Part shown: positions 43,950 through 61,383 of the stretch, one piece after another
Layout of the letters: every line of letters starts with the position of its first letter
How positions within the stretch are numbered: the first letter of the stretch is position 1
Assembly: GCA_003279715.1 (NCBI GenBank)
Contig: QCGY01000006.1
Location: 21,848 to 85,847, forward strand
Length of the DNA: 64,000 bases
Origin: Pelagibacteraceae bacterium AG-390-D18
GTDB lineage: Bacteria > Pseudomonadota > Alphaproteobacteria > Pelagibacterales > Pelagibacteraceae
Reading direction: 5' to 3'
The notes under the pieces: model-generated
Databases searched by the model: none
What the model saw: the letters and a program-made list of their open reading frames with translations, nothing else
Told to the model about the DNA's origin: nothing
Made by a program: the position numbers and the translations under genes

Positions 43950-45428
43950 ATGACAATTAACTTTAAGGCACCAGAAATTAAAGAATTACAACCACGACTT
44001 TTAGTGATGGGAGTTGGTGGAGCAGGGGGAAATGCAATTAATGAAATGATTGAAAATAATCTTCAAGGTGTAGAATTTATTGCAGTTAATACTGACGCGC
44101 AGGATTTAAAGTTAAGTAAATGTAAAACAAGAATTCAAATTGGTTTAAATTTAACTAAAGGATTAGGTGCTGGTGCAAAACTTGATATTGGTCAAGCAGC
44201 AGCTGACGAGTCATTAAATGAAATTGTAAACACTTTACAAGGTGCAAACATGGTTTTTATAGCAGCTGGTATGGGTGGTGGAACAGGTACTGGTGCTGCT
44301 CATGTCATCGCTAGAGCTGCAAAAGAATTAAATATCTTAACAGTAGGTGTTGTGACTCTTCCTTTCTTATATGAAGGCCCCTCTAGAATGAGAAGAGCAC
44401 AACAAGGTTTGGAAGAATTGAGAAAACATGTTGACACAATTATAGTAATTCCAAATCAAAACTTATTTAAAATTGCTAATGAGCAAACAACATTTGAAGA
44501 TTCTTTTAATCTTTCAAATAATGTTCTAATGCACGGTGTTCAAAGTATAACTGATTTGATGGTTAGACCAGGTTTAATTAATCTTGATTTTGCTGATGTA
44601 GAAACTGTTATGGCATCTATGGGTAAAGCAATGATGGGAACGGGAGAAGCTGAAGGCGAAGGTAGAGCTCTTAAGGCTGCCGAGATGGCTATAAGCAATC
44701 CATTGATTGATGATTATACTTTAAAAGGCGCAAAAGGATTATTAGTAAACATCACCGGTGGAAAAGATCTTAAACTTTTTGAAGTCGATGAGGCTGTAAA
44801 TAAAGTAAGAGCTGAAGTAGATCCAGAGGCAGAACTAATTATTGGAGCAATAACTGACTCTGAATTAGATGGAAAAATGAGAGTTTCGATTGTTGCCACA
44901 TCATTAGATGGACAACAGCCAGAGACTAAATCTGTGATTAATATGGTGCATCGTATTCAAAATAGAAATCCAGGTTATTCAGATTTTTCAAATATGGGAT
45001 CATCTGCATCTTTTAATTTCTCAAATTCAATTTCAAATCCAGTTTCTCATGGTGCAAATGCATTGAAGCTTGATAATGAAATCGTTCAAGAACAACAACA
45101 AGAGGATTTAAGCTCAAATGTTTCTAATGAAGAGTTGGTAAATAATAATAACTTTGAAACACAAAGTGTTGTTGAGGATACCTCTGTAAATGAAATGGAG
45201 AAGTCTTTTACTCAAGAAGCAATGGAAACACCCCAAGAACAAATAGTTGAAGAAAGTATTGAAGATGATGTTTCTAATGATTTAAAAGAATTTGGTGTGG
45301 ACTCTGATGCACCAGATTTATTTAGTTCAGAAACTGAAAACTCAAGTTCGGAAGATTTATTATCTACAAATGATGAAGAAGATGACGATCTTGAGATACC
45401 AGCATTCTTAAGAAGACAAAAAAATTAA
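43950..45428 (+). CDS. ftsZ: Cell division protein FtsZ
   Basis: [30 protein letters not shown] tubulin signature, C-terminal [12 protein letters not shown] peptide. Confidence 0.98.
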
Positions 45429-48452: not shown

Positions 48453-51296
48453 ATGTTCTTAGGCGATTATTTTCAAAATATTCAATCTAATTATAAAAAA
48501 TTTTTTTTTTCAGGGATATCTTTTGATAGTACTCAAATAAAAAAAAATAATATTTTTTTTGCAATTAAAGGAAATAAAATAGACGGTAATTACTTTGTGT
48601 CATCTGCAATATCTAAAGGTGCAAAAATAATAGTAACTGAAAAAAAAATTAACGGACTTAAAAATGGTATTTTATTTATTCACTCAAATAATATTAGAAA
48701 ATTATTAGCTGAAACATCATTTAAAATTAACAACAAAATTCCAAATAATATTATTGCAGTTACGGGTACAAATGGAAAATCCTCTATTTCTGATTTTTAT
48801 TATCAAATATTAGATTTGAATAATAAAAAAGTTGCATCAATTGGAACATTAGGAGTTAAATCAAAAAAATATAAAAAAGATTTATCTAATACTACAATAG
48901 ACCCAATTCAATTAAGTAAAATTTTGAGTAACTTAAAAAAACAAAATATTAATAATGTCATTATGGAGGCTTCTAGTCATGGTCTAAGTCAAAACAGGCT
49001 GGACGGCTTATTGTTTAATACAGGAATATTTACAAATTTATCACAAGATCATTTAGATTATCATAAAGATATAAAAAATTATTTGAAAGCGAAACTATAT
49101 TTATTTGAAAAATTGATAAAAAAAAGAGGCAATATAATAACTGATGAAAAAATCCCAGAATTCAAAAAAATAAAAAATCTAGCAATCAAAAAAAATTTAA
49201 ATCTTTTTTCATTATTAGATAAAAAAAATAATTTTCAATTCTTGTCTCATCAATATGAGGGTGAGTCTCAATTGTTGGAGATAAAATATAAAAATTCAAT
49301 TCATAAAATTAAGCTTAATTTGATAGGAAAAATTCAATTTAAAAATGTATTAATGGCATTAATTGCCTCAATCAAAAGTAGTGTCAATATTAAAGACATA
49401 CTTAATATAATACCAAAAATTAAATCTGTAGAGGGAAGATTTGAAAGAGTTGGCAGGATAAAAAACAACTCAAAAGTAATTTTAGACTACGCACATACAC
49501 CTGATGCTTTAAAAACTTGTCTTAGAAATATAAAAGAACAATTTCCAGATAAAAAAATAACTCTAGTGTTTGGTTGTGGAGGAAATAGAGATCAAAATAA
49601 AAGAGCTAAAATGGGTAAAATTGCTGATATTTTTTCAGACAAAATTTATCTTACTGATGATAATCCAAGACTAGAACAACCTAGTAAAATAAGAAAAGAC
49701 ATAAAAAAAGGAATAAAAAAACAAAAAGTATTAGAATTTTCTAATAGAGCTAAGGCAATTGCAGAGGCAATAAAACATTTAAATACAGGTGAGATTTTAC
49801 TTGTAGCTGGAAAAGGCCATGAAAAAGTTCAAGAAATTGGTGTAAAAAAAATTTTTTTTTCAGATAAAAAAAATATCCTTGATGCGATAAAGGTTAAAAA
49901 TTTAAATTTATCAAATAATTTAAAAGTTAATATACTTAACGAGCTTAGTGTAGAAAAAAAAATCTCTAACCAAATCTCTTTGGAGAAAGCTAGAATTAAT
50001 TCAAAAGAAATAAAAAAAAATGATATTTTTTTTGCAATTAAAGGAAAAAAAAATGATGGTAACAAATTTATAAATGAAGCTTTCAAAAAAAAAGCATCAA
50101 TTGTAGTAGTTAATAAAATTAAAAAAAAAATAAATATTTCACATCAAATTAAAAGCAAAGATTCTTTAAAATTTTTAACAAAATGTTCTGAGTTATATAG
50201 AGAAAATATAAAAACAAAAATTATTGCTATAACGGGTAGCTGTGGAAAAACTACATTAAAAGAGTTGTTGGCCAATTCATTAAAACAGATATCCACAGTT
50301 GGTATTTCACCTAAATCTTATAATAATAAGTATGGAGTTCCGTTAAGTCTTTTTAATTTAGATCAAAAAAATAATTATGGAGTTTTAGAAATTGGGATGG
50401 ATAAAAAAGGTGAAATTGATTATCTCTCAAAAATTGTTAAACCAGATGTTAGTGTGATTACTAACATTAATTATGCTCATGCTAAGAATTTTAGAAATAT
50501 AAGACAAATTGCTTTAGCTAAATCAGAAATAATTAATAATACAAAAATTAATGGATTTATCGTTCTAAATGCCGATGATAATTCTTATACTTTACATAAA
50601 AAAATTGCTCATAAAAGAAAACTTAAAATTTTATCATTTGGTATTGATAATCAAAATGCAAATATAAGACTTATAAGTGTTAAAAAAATTGCCAATAAGT
50701 TTAAAGCAAGAATTAGGATAAATAATTTAAAAACTTATTTTTTTATTTCAAATAATTTTCAAAGTAATATCTTAAATATTTTAGCTGCACTGGCAGTAAT
50801 GAGTATTTTTTTAGATATATCAAAATTAAAAAAAAATATTTTTATAGGTTTTAAAATACCAAGTGGTAGAGGAGATATTGCTAAAATTAAGATTAACAAT
50901 AAAAACTTAAACTTAGTAGATGAAAGTTATAATTCAAATCCATTGTCTCTTAAATCTGCAATTTTAAATTTTGATAAAATCAAAATTGACAAAGGAAAAA
51001 AATTTATATTATTAGGTGATATGTTGGAACTGGGAAAACACTCAAAGAAACTTCATCAATCTATTGGAAAAATAATCAATAATACAAAGATAGACAAAGT
51101 CTTTGTAAGAGGAAGTAAAGTTTTGTTTACATACAATTCTATTTCGAAAAAGAAAAAAGGTAGAGTATTAAACAACAACTCACAAATTATTGATTTGATT
51201 AAAAATGATTTAAATAATAATGATTATCTTATGGTTAAGGCCTCAAATGCGACAGGATTCAATGAGATATTCAGTAATTTAAAAGGTTTAAAATAA
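48453..51296 (+). CDS. murE-murF: Fused MurE-MurF (UDP-MurNAc-tripeptide synthetase / D-Ala-D-Ala-adding enzyme)
   Basis: Two consecutive Mur ligases in one 947-aa ORF: AVTGTNGKSS...DDNPRLEQ (MurE, DNPR motif) then AITGSCGKTTLKELLAN...GVLEIGMDKKGEI...VDESYNSNPLSL (MurF). Confidence 0.9.
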   Translation: MFLGDYFQNIQSNYKKFFFSGISFDSTQIKKNNIFFAIKGNKIDGNYFVSSAISKGAKIIVTEKKINGLKNGILFIHSNNIRKLLAETSFKINNKIPNNIIAVTGTNGKSSISDFYYQILDLNNKKVASIGTLGVKSKKYKKDLSNTTIDPIQLSKILSNLKKQNINNVIMEASSHGLSQNRLDGLLFNTGIFTNLSQDHLDYHKDIKNYLKAKLYLFEKLIKKRGNIITDEKIPEFKKIKNLAIKKNLNLFSLLDKKNNFQFLSHQYEGESQLLEIKYKNSIHKIKLNLIGKIQFKNVLMALIASIKSSVNIKDILNIIPKIKSVEGRFERVGRIKNNSKVILDYAHTPDALKTCLRNIKEQFPDKKITLVFGCGGNRDQNKRAKMGKIADIFSDKIYLTDDNPRLEQPSKIRKDIKKGIKKQKVLEFSNRAKAIAEAIKHLNTGEILLVAGKGHEKVQEIGVKKIFFSDKKNILDAIKVKNLNLSNNLKVNILNELSVEKKISNQISLEKARINSKEIKKNDIFFAIKGKKNDGNKFINEAFKKKASIVVVNKIKKKINISHQIKSKDSLKFLTKCSELYRENIKTKIIAITGSCGKTTLKELLANSLKQISTVGISPKSYNNKYGVPLSLFNLDQKNNYGVLEIGMDKKGEIDYLSKIVKPDVSVITNINYAHAKNFRNIRQIALAKSEIINNTKINGFIVLNADDNSYTLHKKIAHKRKLKILSFGIDNQNANIRLISVKKIANKFKARIRINNLKTYFFISNNFQSNILNILAALAVMSIFLDISKLKKNIFIGFKIPSGRGDIAKIKINNKNLNLVDESYNSNPLSLKSAILNFDKIKIDKGKKFILLGDMLELGKHSKKLHQSIGKIINNTKIDKVFVRGSKVLFTYNSISKKKKGRVLNNNSQIIDLIKNDLNNNDYLMVKASNATGFNEIFSNLKGLK

Positions 51297-58158: not shown

Positions 58159-59073
58159 TTGAAAAAAAAAATACTAATACTCGCTGGTGGAATCTCAAAA
58201 GAAAGATTAATTAGTCTTGATACGGGTTTGCAAGTTGCAAAAGAGCTTAAAAAAAATGGTTATAAAGTAAAAATTTCTGAACCTGATGGCAATTTATCAA
58301 AAAATATTAATCAATTTAAACCCAATATTATCTTTAATGCATTACATGGACAGTTTGGTGAAGATGGTTATATACAAACGATCCTAGAAGGATTTAAAAT
58401 ACCATATACTCATTCAGGAGTAATTGCCTCTTCATTAGCAATGGATAAAGTAATATCGAAAAAAATTTTTATTAAAAATAAAATCAATACCCCTAAATAT
58501 ATTAAATATTCTTATGAAGAAAATAATTTTGTTTTGATAAAAAATATTGAAAAGAAGTTAAAATTTCCAGTCGTATTAAAACCAATTAACGAAGGCTCAA
58601 GTGTAAATGTTTTTATTTGTACAAAAAAAAATATTTCAAGAGTTTTAAGTTCAATGAAAATATATAAAGAGATCATGATAGAGGAATTTATTGGTGGAAG
58701 AGAAATTCAAGTTGCAATCATGGGCAATAAAAAATTAGGAGCAATAGAGCTTAAACCAAAGAGAAAATTTTATGATTATGAAGCTAAATACAGCGTAAAT
58801 GCAAAAACTGAACATATAATTCCAGTTAAGATTCCAAAAAATAAATTAAATGAGGTAATGGACTTGTCATTTAAAGCACACAAGATTATTGGTTGTAAGG
58901 GAGTTACTAGATCAGATTTCAAATTTTATAAAAATAAGTATTATTTGCTAGAGATTAATACTCAGCCAGGTATGACAAAATTATCTCTTGTTCCAGAAAT
59001 AGCAAAATATAGAGGAATATCCTTTATAAAACTAATTGAGTGGATTTTAAAAGATGCAACAACGAAAAAGTAA
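58159..59073 (+). CDS. ddl: D-alanine-D-alanine ligase (TTG start)
   Basis: ILAGGISKERLISLDTG, NALHGQFGEDGYIQ, LEINTQPGMTKLSLVPE. Confidence 0.95.
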   Translation: MKKKILILAGGISKERLISLDTGLQVAKELKKNGYKVKISEPDGNLSKNINQFKPNIIFNALHGQFGEDGYIQTILEGFKIPYTHSGVIASSLAMDKVISKKIFIKNKINTPKYIKYSYEENNFVLIKNIEKKLKFPVVLKPINEGSSVNVFICTKKNISRVLSSMKIYKEIMIEEFIGGREIQVAIMGNKKLGAIELKPKRKFYDYEAKYSVNAKTEHIIPVKIPKNKLNEVMDLSFKAHKIIGCKGVTRSDFKFYKNKYYLLEINTQPGMTKLSLVPEIAKYRGISFIKLIEWILKDATTKK

Positions 59074-59710
59074 AAAAATTTTAATATACTTTTTTTTATT
59101 ACTGTTAGTTGGGTCAATAAATAATATTAATCTAAACACTTTAGAATTACAGAATATTAATGATATCAATATTGTTGGGTTAGAGGTTGAGGATAAATCA
59201 ATTTTACATCAAAAAATAAAAAATTTTAATCTAAATAATGTTTTTTCAATTAGTAAAATTGATCTAATTAATGAAATTGAATCAAATTCTATAATAGAAA
59301 AATATTCTATTTTCAAAAGATACCCATCTTCATTAGATGTTAATATTGAAAAAACAAAATTTTTAGCAAGAATAAATAAAAATGGCCAAATTTTTTATAT
59401 TGGCTCTAATGGACGATTTATTAAAAATGATTTTTTTAACAATCAATTACCTTTTATTTTTGGAAATCCAAAGTTGGATGAATTTTTTATAATTAAAAAA
59501 ATTATTGATGAGTCTAAAATTTCTTATGCAGAGATAAAAAACTTATATTTTTTTCCATCTAAAAGATGGGATTTAGAATTAAGAGATAACACTATAATAA
59601 AATTACCAAATGATAATGTTAATCTTGCCATTAATTTAGCAATAAAATTTTTAGATGATAATGAATTTATTGATGCAAGAATTAAAAACCAAATTATTTT
59701 AGATGATTGA
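59054..59710 (+). CDS. ftsQ: FtsQ-like division protein (POTRA)
   Basis: One N-terminal TM, POTRA-like region, syntenic position after ddl. Confidence 0.75.
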   Translation: MQQRKSKKILIYFFLLLLVGSINNINLNTLELQNINDINIVGLEVEDKSILHQKIKNFNLNNVFSISKIDLINEIESNSIIEKYSIFKRYPSSLDVNIEKTKFLARINKNGQIFYIGSNGRFIKNDFFNNQLPFIFGNPKLDEFFIIKKIIDESKISYAEIKNLYFFPSKRWDLELRDNTIIKLPNDNVNLAINLAIKFLDDNEFIDARIKNQIILDD

Positions 59711-60398
59711 AGAAACTGATTTTGAAACTTTCCTTTATATTTCTAAAAATAAATATCAAATATTTGTTTATGATAAAAATAATTTAAAAGAGCTATACAA
59801 TGAAGAAGTAAAGACTAATGTTGATATTGAACCAAATAATCTTTCTAAATTTATTGATGACAATATTTATAAAATTGAAAAAACAATAAATAATTTTATC
59901 AGAAATATTATTTTAATTATAGAAGATGATAAAATTTTAGATGTAACTATATCAATAAAAAAAAAGTATTATGAAAAAAGTATAGCTCAAAAATATTTAG
60001 AAAATAGCTTAGTAGAGGTCAAAGATATTTTTAGAGAAAATTATAATGATCAGATAATTATGCACATGATTATTGTTAATAATCACAAAATCAAAAATGA
60101 TAATTTATTAAATAATTCAAATAAAAATGATGATTATTTGTTCTTAGATATAAATTTCATTTCCATTCCGAATAAATTTACTTTTTATTTTGAAAAATTG
60201 TTAGAAGATCATCAAGTTAAGATTAGACGCTACATGTCAGGCAATTATATAAAAAGTTATTTAAGTGAAGATGCAAACAATTTATCTGTGATGGCAAATA
60301 AATTAAATAATGGACTAAATAAAGATGAAGTTCAATTAGTCTCGAAAAGTATAGAAAATAGAGGTTTTTTTGAGAGATTCTTTCAATTATTTAGTTAA
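59703..60398 (+). CDS. Truncated/minimal FtsA-like protein (231 aa) in the ftsA position
   Basis: Overlaps ftsQ by 8 nt; weak resemblance to FtsA 1A/1C regions (IIMHMIIVNNHKIKND, LDINFISIPNKFTFYFEKLLEDHQVKIRRYMSGNYIKSYL); C-terminal amphipathic RGFFERFFQLFS. Confidence 0.5.
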   Translation: MIEETDFETFLYISKNKYQIFVYDKNNLKELYNEEVKTNVDIEPNNLSKFIDDNIYKIEKTINNFIRNIILIIEDDKILDVTISIKKKYYEKSIAQKYLENSLVEVKDIFRENYNDQIIMHMIIVNNHKIKNDNLLNNSNKNDDYLFLDINFISIPNKFTFYFEKLLEDHQVKIRRYMSGNYIKSYLSEDANNLSVMANKLNNGLNKDEVQLVSKSIENRGFFERFFQLFS

Positions 60399-60462: not shown

Positions 60463-61383
60463 GTGTCTTATTTAACTCAAAAAACAATTAAAAATAATGT
60501 TTCATTTAGTGGTGTAGCATTACACACTGGGTTAGATGTGAATGTGTGCATAAAACCAGCTGAGCCCAATTTTGGAATTGTGTTTAAAAGAGTTGATTAC
60601 AAAGAAAATAACTTAGTTTATCCAAATTTTATGAACGTTACCAATACTTCACTAAACACAACTATTGAAAATGAATTTGGAGTTAAAGTTTCAACTATTG
60701 AACATTTAATGGGCGCATTATTTGGATTGGGAATTGATAATGCATTGATAGAAGTAGATAATGAAGAAGTTCCAATTCTAGATGGATCCGCAAAAGAATT
60801 TATTGAAAAGATTATTAGTTCTGGATTAGCAGTTAGCGAGTCACCAATTAAAATTATCAAAATTAATAAGAAAATAAAATTTATAGATGGTGAGAGATTT
60901 ATATCAATAGAGCCATCTACTTTGAGTTTGGATATAAACTTTGAGCTAAAGTATAAAAATCCAATAATTGGAAATCAAACTAATAAAGTTAAAGTTTTTG
61001 AAGATGATTTGACAGATGTCTACAATTCAAGAACTTTTTGTTTGTTTGAAGATATTGAATTGATTAAGAAAAATGGTCTAGCAAAAGGTGGAAGTTTACA
61101 AAATGCGATAGTAGTTAAAGATCATGAAATTTTAAATCCTGAAGGTTTAAGGAATGATAAAGAATTTGTTAATCATAAAATACTTGATTGCATTGGAGAT
61201 TTATATACATCTGGGTATAGAGTAATTGCTAAAATCAAATGCTCTCAAGGAGGTCATTATCTTACTAACCAGTTGCTTAAAAAAGTATTTGAAAATAAAG
61301 ATAATTTTTCAATTCTTGAAATAAAAGAAAAAAACTTACCTCATACTTTAATTAATAGAAAATTATTAAAATCTATAGCTTAA
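60463..61383 (+). CDS. lpxC: UDP-3-O-acyl-N-acetylglucosamine deacetylase (GTG start)
   Basis: VSFSGVALHTGLDVNVCIKPA, STIEHLMGALFGLGIDN, VNHKILDCIGDLYTSG. Confidence 0.97.
   Translation: MSYLTQKTIKNNVSFSGVALHTGLDVNVCIKPAEPNFGIVFKRVDYKENNLVYPNFMNVTNTSLNTTIENEFGVKVSTIEHLMGALFGLGIDNALIEVDNEEVPILDGSAKEFIEKIISSGLAVSESPIKIIKINKKIKFIDGERFISIEPSTLSLDINFELKYKNPIIGNQTNKVKVFEDDLTDVYNSRTFCLFEDIELIKKNGLAKGGSLQNAIVVKDHEILNPEGLRNDKEFVNHKILDCIGDLYTSGYRVIAKIKCSQGGHYLTNQLLKKVFENKDNFSILEIKEKNLPHTLINRKLLKSIA

Follow-up and report, generated by a model that had tools for sequence, protein, structure and literature searches.

Accounts of FtsA present it as a homologue of actin that binds ATP, polymerises and attaches FtsZ to the membrane. 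In the 64,000-nt stretch of Pelagibacteraceae bacterium AG-390-D18 analysed here (the window, from whose first letter all positions are counted), the place that follows ftsQ is taken by a frame of 231 aa, compared with the about 370-410 aa of FtsA. The locus raises the question of whether so short a gene encodes an FtsA and, in that case, which parts of the protein are left and what they may do.

The ftsA slot of the window

An uninterrupted reading frame with an ATG start was confirmed at 59703..60398 (+), between ftsQ (59054..59710, +), whose end overlaps its start by 8 nt, and lpxC (60463..61383, +), which begins with GTG 64 nt past its stop. Both neighbours are backed by Pfam, the coordinates of the initial annotation held throughout, and the order of ftsQ, the frame in question and lpxC was found in the window and in every locus read. 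That annotation regarded the slot as exactly the alphaproteobacterial place of ftsA, which is right for the position after ftsQ but not for what comes next, as in alphaproteobacteria ftsZ usually sits between ftsA and lpxC. The ftsZ of the window (43950..45428, +; 492 aa, with the C-terminal peptide encoded at 45384-45425) is found instead where the dcw cluster begins, flanked by mraZ and rsmH, about 15 kb upstream of the mini-ftsA, and likewise in other Pelagibacter genomes where both genes were placed. A 947-aa ORF at 48453-51296 looks by eye like a MurE-MurF fusion with two Mur-ligase P-loops.

A Pfam search with the window protein as a single sequence gave nothing significant (best SpoVT_C, E 0.096, at the level of chance), so that its homology is invisible to searches of this kind. 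Moreover, the NCBIfam ftsA model TIGR01174 matched neither this protein alone nor anything else in the AG-390-D18 genome, whose assembly is 82% complete.

Homology to FtsA

When 60 relatives were searched with the window protein, the same slot turned out to hold proteins of two sizes, ~231-237 aa and ~369-394 aa; in two of the long forms the alignment with the window protein is split, its main part matching separately from its tail. The long slot proteins match Pfam FtsA (PF14450, E 5e-11 to 2e-15) and FtsA structures. When profiles of the mini and full forms were compared with hhalign, they matched over residues 5-189 with a probability of 99.9 and an E-value of 1e-36 (9e-32 with larger sets), and the C-terminal tails of the two forms match as well. 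In this line, TIGR01174 was matched by 24 of 38 minis, with a best E-value of 5.9e-13, its curated cut-off of 175.85 bits being set for the whole protein; the SHS2 family PF02491 was matched by seven of the 38, and the best PDB sequence match of the mini profile was E. coli FtsA (E 1.3e-4, aligned over residues 57-191). At the level of sequence, synteny and profiles identify the ORF as the genuine orthologue of ftsA in this Pelagibacter genome.

The AlphaFold2 model of the window protein, built with 61 aligned relatives, reached a mean pLDDT of 84.5 and a pTM of 0.80. Foldseek searches of the PDB with this FtsA-like model returned FtsA in all of the top 18 chains (E 1e-10 to 3e-8), followed by PilM and GspL/EpsL, and the comparison with the FtsA fold that the initial annotation had proposed thus came out in favour of its idea. 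The model of L119, a full relative, shows both lobes, and its match to FtsA extends over about 360-400 columns. As judged from these models, lobe II is cut out and lobe I is kept. Just before the tail, a helix at residues 194-202 is predicted with a confidence around 90, and its assignment to lobe I is consistent with the course of actin-like folds, where the chain comes back to lobe I at the C terminus. Altogether, profiles, tails, model and Foldseek agree with what had been suspected from the letters, a diverged FtsA in which half of the actin fold is missing, and we hold the homology to FtsA together with the loss of domains as firm, with very little room for doubt.

Parts kept and parts missing

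The N-terminal part of subdomain 1A, as placed by alignment and model with approximate boundaries, covers residues 1-78 (59703..59936, +) and is predicted to form strands at 7-13, 17-24 and 30-37, a helix at 44-62 and a strand at 68-73. Where full forms carry the phosphate-1 motif DxGSSK, the window protein has YISKNK, which bears out the diverged 1A segment without phosphate loop read initially. Subdomain 1C (SHS2), inserted in 1A, would span about residues 79-156 (59937..60170, +) according to the profile alignment, the PF02491 matches, the model and Foldseek. An SHS2/1C module had indeed been proposed, and it is present, but the stretch FISIPNKF...SYL to which it was assigned comprises the end of 1C and the part where the chain comes back into 1A (residues 157-186; 60171..60260, +), the last before the missing 2A and 2B. 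After the retained last helix of FtsA (60282..60308, +) comes a conserved GxNxNEV stretch, and the protein closes with the helix RGFFERFFQLFS (60360..60395, +). This helix is a predicted membrane-targeting sequence, being both conserved and amphipathic: the moment of its GFFERFFQLFS portion is 0.60, a value that about 5% of shuffles attain, and none of 38 minis departs from F223 or F227. The linker and amphipathic end of the initial reading are thus real, although the last helix of FtsA, which that reading had passed over, is kept too.

The second actin lobe is missing. About 150 residues of the full form are absent, comprising 2A, with no PF14450 match left, and the FtsZ-binding subdomain 2B. 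With phosphate 1 replaced and the phosphate-2 and adenosine motifs belonging to the missing lobe, none of the nucleotide motifs is left. On alignment and model, the mini-FtsA is an FtsA minus 2A and 2B in which 1A, 1C, the last helix and the membrane helix are kept.

Distribution and selection of the short form

A scan based on LpxC, and therefore independent of ftsA, gathered 80 named loci, mostly from single-cell Pelagibacteraceae genomes. The slot was readable at least in part in 76 of them, 45 with a mini and 31 with a full form; 38 of the minis are complete (about 220-245 aa), and so are 30 of the full forms (369-399 aa). Three single-contig genomes (G062, G067 and G063) carry the mini form and a fourth (G066) the full one. 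The mini form is the derived one, given that FtsA in other SAR11 genera and the sister family measures about 393-411 aa wherever its two ends were readable. The initial annotation had advised looking for a canonical ftsA elsewhere, and a PF14450 search of the complete mini genomes found no second FtsA: outside the slot, the matches were MreB and DnaK-sized frames. A class-wide search with SHS2 gave no convincing short FtsA outside SAR11 among the matches listed, which include a 228-aa frame near a contig end (G522:C319).

Contigs end in or near the N-terminal part of mini-ftsA more often than expected (L085, L088, L094, L105, L194, L195, L197, L198 and others), and what looked in several genomes like loss of the N terminus turned out to be such contig ends. 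With a GC content of only 16-18%, this stretch ranks near the bottom of the window, and for this reason the breaks are probably sequencing dropout. Two mini-ftsA genes, L169 (G012) and L196 (G184), carry single frameshifts at A/T homopolymers in nearly the same place; these are probably sequencing errors, polymerase slippage being possible, and they were set aside.

Frequent assembly breaks in a low-GC stretch could suggest that the short frame itself is a truncation produced by sequencing or assembly, or else a chance ORF in the slot. The recurrence of the short form in the three single-contig genomes and in many independent single-cell ones already refutes this explanation, to which we give practically no weight, and the alignment of SAR11 orthologues, another check proposed at the start, showed dozens of the same length and no truncation error. 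A real gene might be a decaying and functionless remnant on its way out, as the fast evolution of the protein and the two frameshifted copies could indicate. Nevertheless, the frame is open in nearly all of dozens of genomes with a near-constant length, and both frameshifts fall in homopolymers. Moreover, dN/dS between close minis is 0.11-0.26 (0.13-0.20 between close full forms), Y182 is as invariant in the 38 minis as the two phenylalanines of the last helix, and E59, K60, K86, H121, N206 and E209 are nearly so. The mini-FtsA is under purifying selection, which makes decay a very improbable explanation.

Probable repeated loss of lobe II

At least five changes between mini and full forms are required by a tree built from six flanking proteins, and a mixture-model tree with 51 rows gives five too, four of them forced by strongly supported branches. 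As the outgroups are full and lobe II could hardly be regained, these trees suggest, with the events counted by hand, that lobe II was lost at least 4-5 times. On the other hand, the mini form could have arisen once and spread by gene replacement, a history compatible with either of the mechanisms considered below: a short tree of the 1A-1C part of FtsA does not reject a single mini clade (p 0.36). The signal of 1A-1C is short, however, and the minis sit on long branches, whereas the flanking genes do reject one clade of all minis (AU test, delta lnL 126.5, p 0.0004). In addition, the tree of full-length FtsA largely agrees with that of the flanks, as expected for vertical descent, and this favours vertical descent with repeated loss over replacement. 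A single origin seems to us somewhat unlikely, though it deserves serious attention.

Lobe II also varies among the proteins that keep it. The genera g6, g7 and g10 have the 2B hairpin region and intact nucleotide motifs; the 2B region is shorter by about 20 residues in the sister family and in HTCC1062-like full forms, and the full model of L119 shows no strands in the hairpin region. This shrunken 2B in some full Pelagibacter FtsA suggests that loss of the 2B hairpin may have preceded that of the lobe: binding of FtsZ through 2B would have weakened first, leaving lobe II dispensable and open to repeated loss. In eight loci of other Pelagibacteraceae genera (L156-L163), the slot upstream of lpxC holds an FtsA of ~394-399 aa whose phosphate-1, phosphate-2 and adenosine motifs are lost, which is a second type of erosion and unlike the first. 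Within SAR11, therefore, the erosion of FtsA takes several forms.

Adaptor or FtsZ tether

The site of FtsA to which FtsZ binds in E. coli and Thermotoga is subdomain 2B (strands S12-S13), whose deletion in E. coli abolishes the FtsA-FtsZ interaction, whereas 1C is engaged in self-interaction and in the recruitment of FtsQ and FtsN (PMC4281207). The tail of FtsN sits in the IA-IC cleft, and longitudinal contacts between FtsA molecules use IIA and IIB (PMC7613929). Seen against this background, a protein without 2A and 2B that keeps 1A and 1C is best read as a membrane-bound, non-ATPase adaptor. The gene would be the ftsA that Pelagibacter inherited, after deletion of actin lobe II (2A and 2B), and its product would bind no ATP in an interlobe cleft, form no longitudinal contacts based on IIA and IIB and not hold FtsZ by the known 2B site. 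What is left may act as a small membrane-bound adaptor in which the 1A-1C cleft and the surface of 1C engage other divisome proteins, by comparison with other bacteria FtsQ or FtsN-like tails, and which possibly pairs 1C to 1C. This reading of function is drawn from models and from the homologous FtsA of E. coli and Vibrio. Taken together, lobe II deletion from an inherited ftsA leaving a non-ATPase adaptor that keeps its 1A-1C cleft for divisome partners is an account we consider probable; the adaptor mechanism by itself is plausible but unproven. With regard to FtsN as a partner, the SPOR matches were RlpA-like lipoproteins and FtsN was not found, and the client of the cleft is for this reason assumed only.

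The initial annotation had gone further and proposed an FtsZ tether, a claim left unsupported, as the known FtsZ site in 2B (PMC4281207) is missing from the mini-FtsA. The tether would have to work through a new site on lobe I. In this regard, every mini and full Pelagibacter genome read has the identical core, EIPAFLRRQ, in its FtsZ C-terminal peptide, which indicates that something still binds the peptide, and the membrane helix is strictly kept. Searches for other anchors gave sub-threshold matches of about 21 residues for SepF and weak matches below the cut-off for FtsX, mostly to frames of 396-419 aa that we read as LolC/E-type permeases. With the peptide conserved and neither SepF nor a convincing FtsX found, the mini-FtsA could itself bind FtsZ. 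Against this, strands S12-S13 of 2B are gone (PMC4281207) and no new acceptor site was identified in what is left, so that we take a lobe I tether as unlikely. The adaptor reading can be widened into a fuller picture, which we advance tentatively and with rather less confidence than its core: the only FtsA of the mini genomes would lack ATP binding, actin polymerisation and the 2B contact with FtsZ, stripped repeatedly and independently to a 1A-1C membrane adaptor, and the Z-ring would be anchored through the same FtsZ peptide in a way not described so far.

ZapA is present in 13 of 13 genomes, mini and full, and explains no difference between them. Four mini genomes (L184, L188, L193 and L047) have Phe or Tyr in place of the leucine that immediately precedes the FtsZ core, a change seen in none of the full genomes read; the four fall, partly by eye, in small separate mini lineages, and the change possibly reflects relaxed or altered FtsZ binding after the loss of 2B. 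SAR11 FtsZ linkers also share a motif, for example NGLENF...PELF, about 30-50 residues before the C-terminal peptide, with PDLF found in the sister family too, which is possibly a second binding motif.

Comparison with known systems

The mini-FtsA resembles FtsA (TIGR01174; PF14450 and PF02491; 1e4f, 4a2a, 7q6d, 7q6f and 7q6i) in gene position, in the 1A and 1C folds, in the last helix and in the C-terminal amphipathic helix, and differs from it in the absence of 2A, 2B and the three nucleotide motifs. The cytoplasmic domain of GspL/EpsL (type II secretion; 1yf5, 4pht) is actin-related and of similar size, with 224-238 residues in structures and Foldseek E-values of 2e-6 to 1e-5. It is however a different protein family, with its own transmembrane helix, and part of a secretion system. 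PilM of the type IV pilus (2ych, 5eou) has an FtsA-like fold with 1C and acts as an adaptor, binding the cytoplasmic tail of PilN in its IA-IC cleft (PMC7613929). Unlike the mini-FtsA, which has one lobe, lies in the dcw cluster and matches PilM below FtsA in Foldseek, PilM keeps both lobes and nucleotide and belongs to another operon and pathway. A further comparison is with engineered E. coli FtsA derivatives, in which the activities can be separated, since 1C recruits FtsQ and FtsN and deletion of 2B loses FtsZ (PMC4281207); a Z-ring-independent interaction of 1C is also on record (Corbin 2004, as cited in PMC7613929). In E. coli, however, deletion of 2B leads to filamentation (PMC4281207), whereas the mini genomes have a natural and sole FtsA from which all of lobe II is missing. 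A search of the open-access literature, with subscription literature outside its range, found no description of a half-length FtsA.

One of the most abundant bacterial groups would thus live with a natural, selected FtsA that lacks the modules for ATP binding, polymerisation and the tie to FtsZ, while close relatives keep the whole protein, which amounts to a natural separation of function. This makes it testable which half of FtsA is indispensable in a near-universal division protein, whether the downstream steps of division can proceed with 1A-1C alone, and how the Z-ring is held once 2B is gone.
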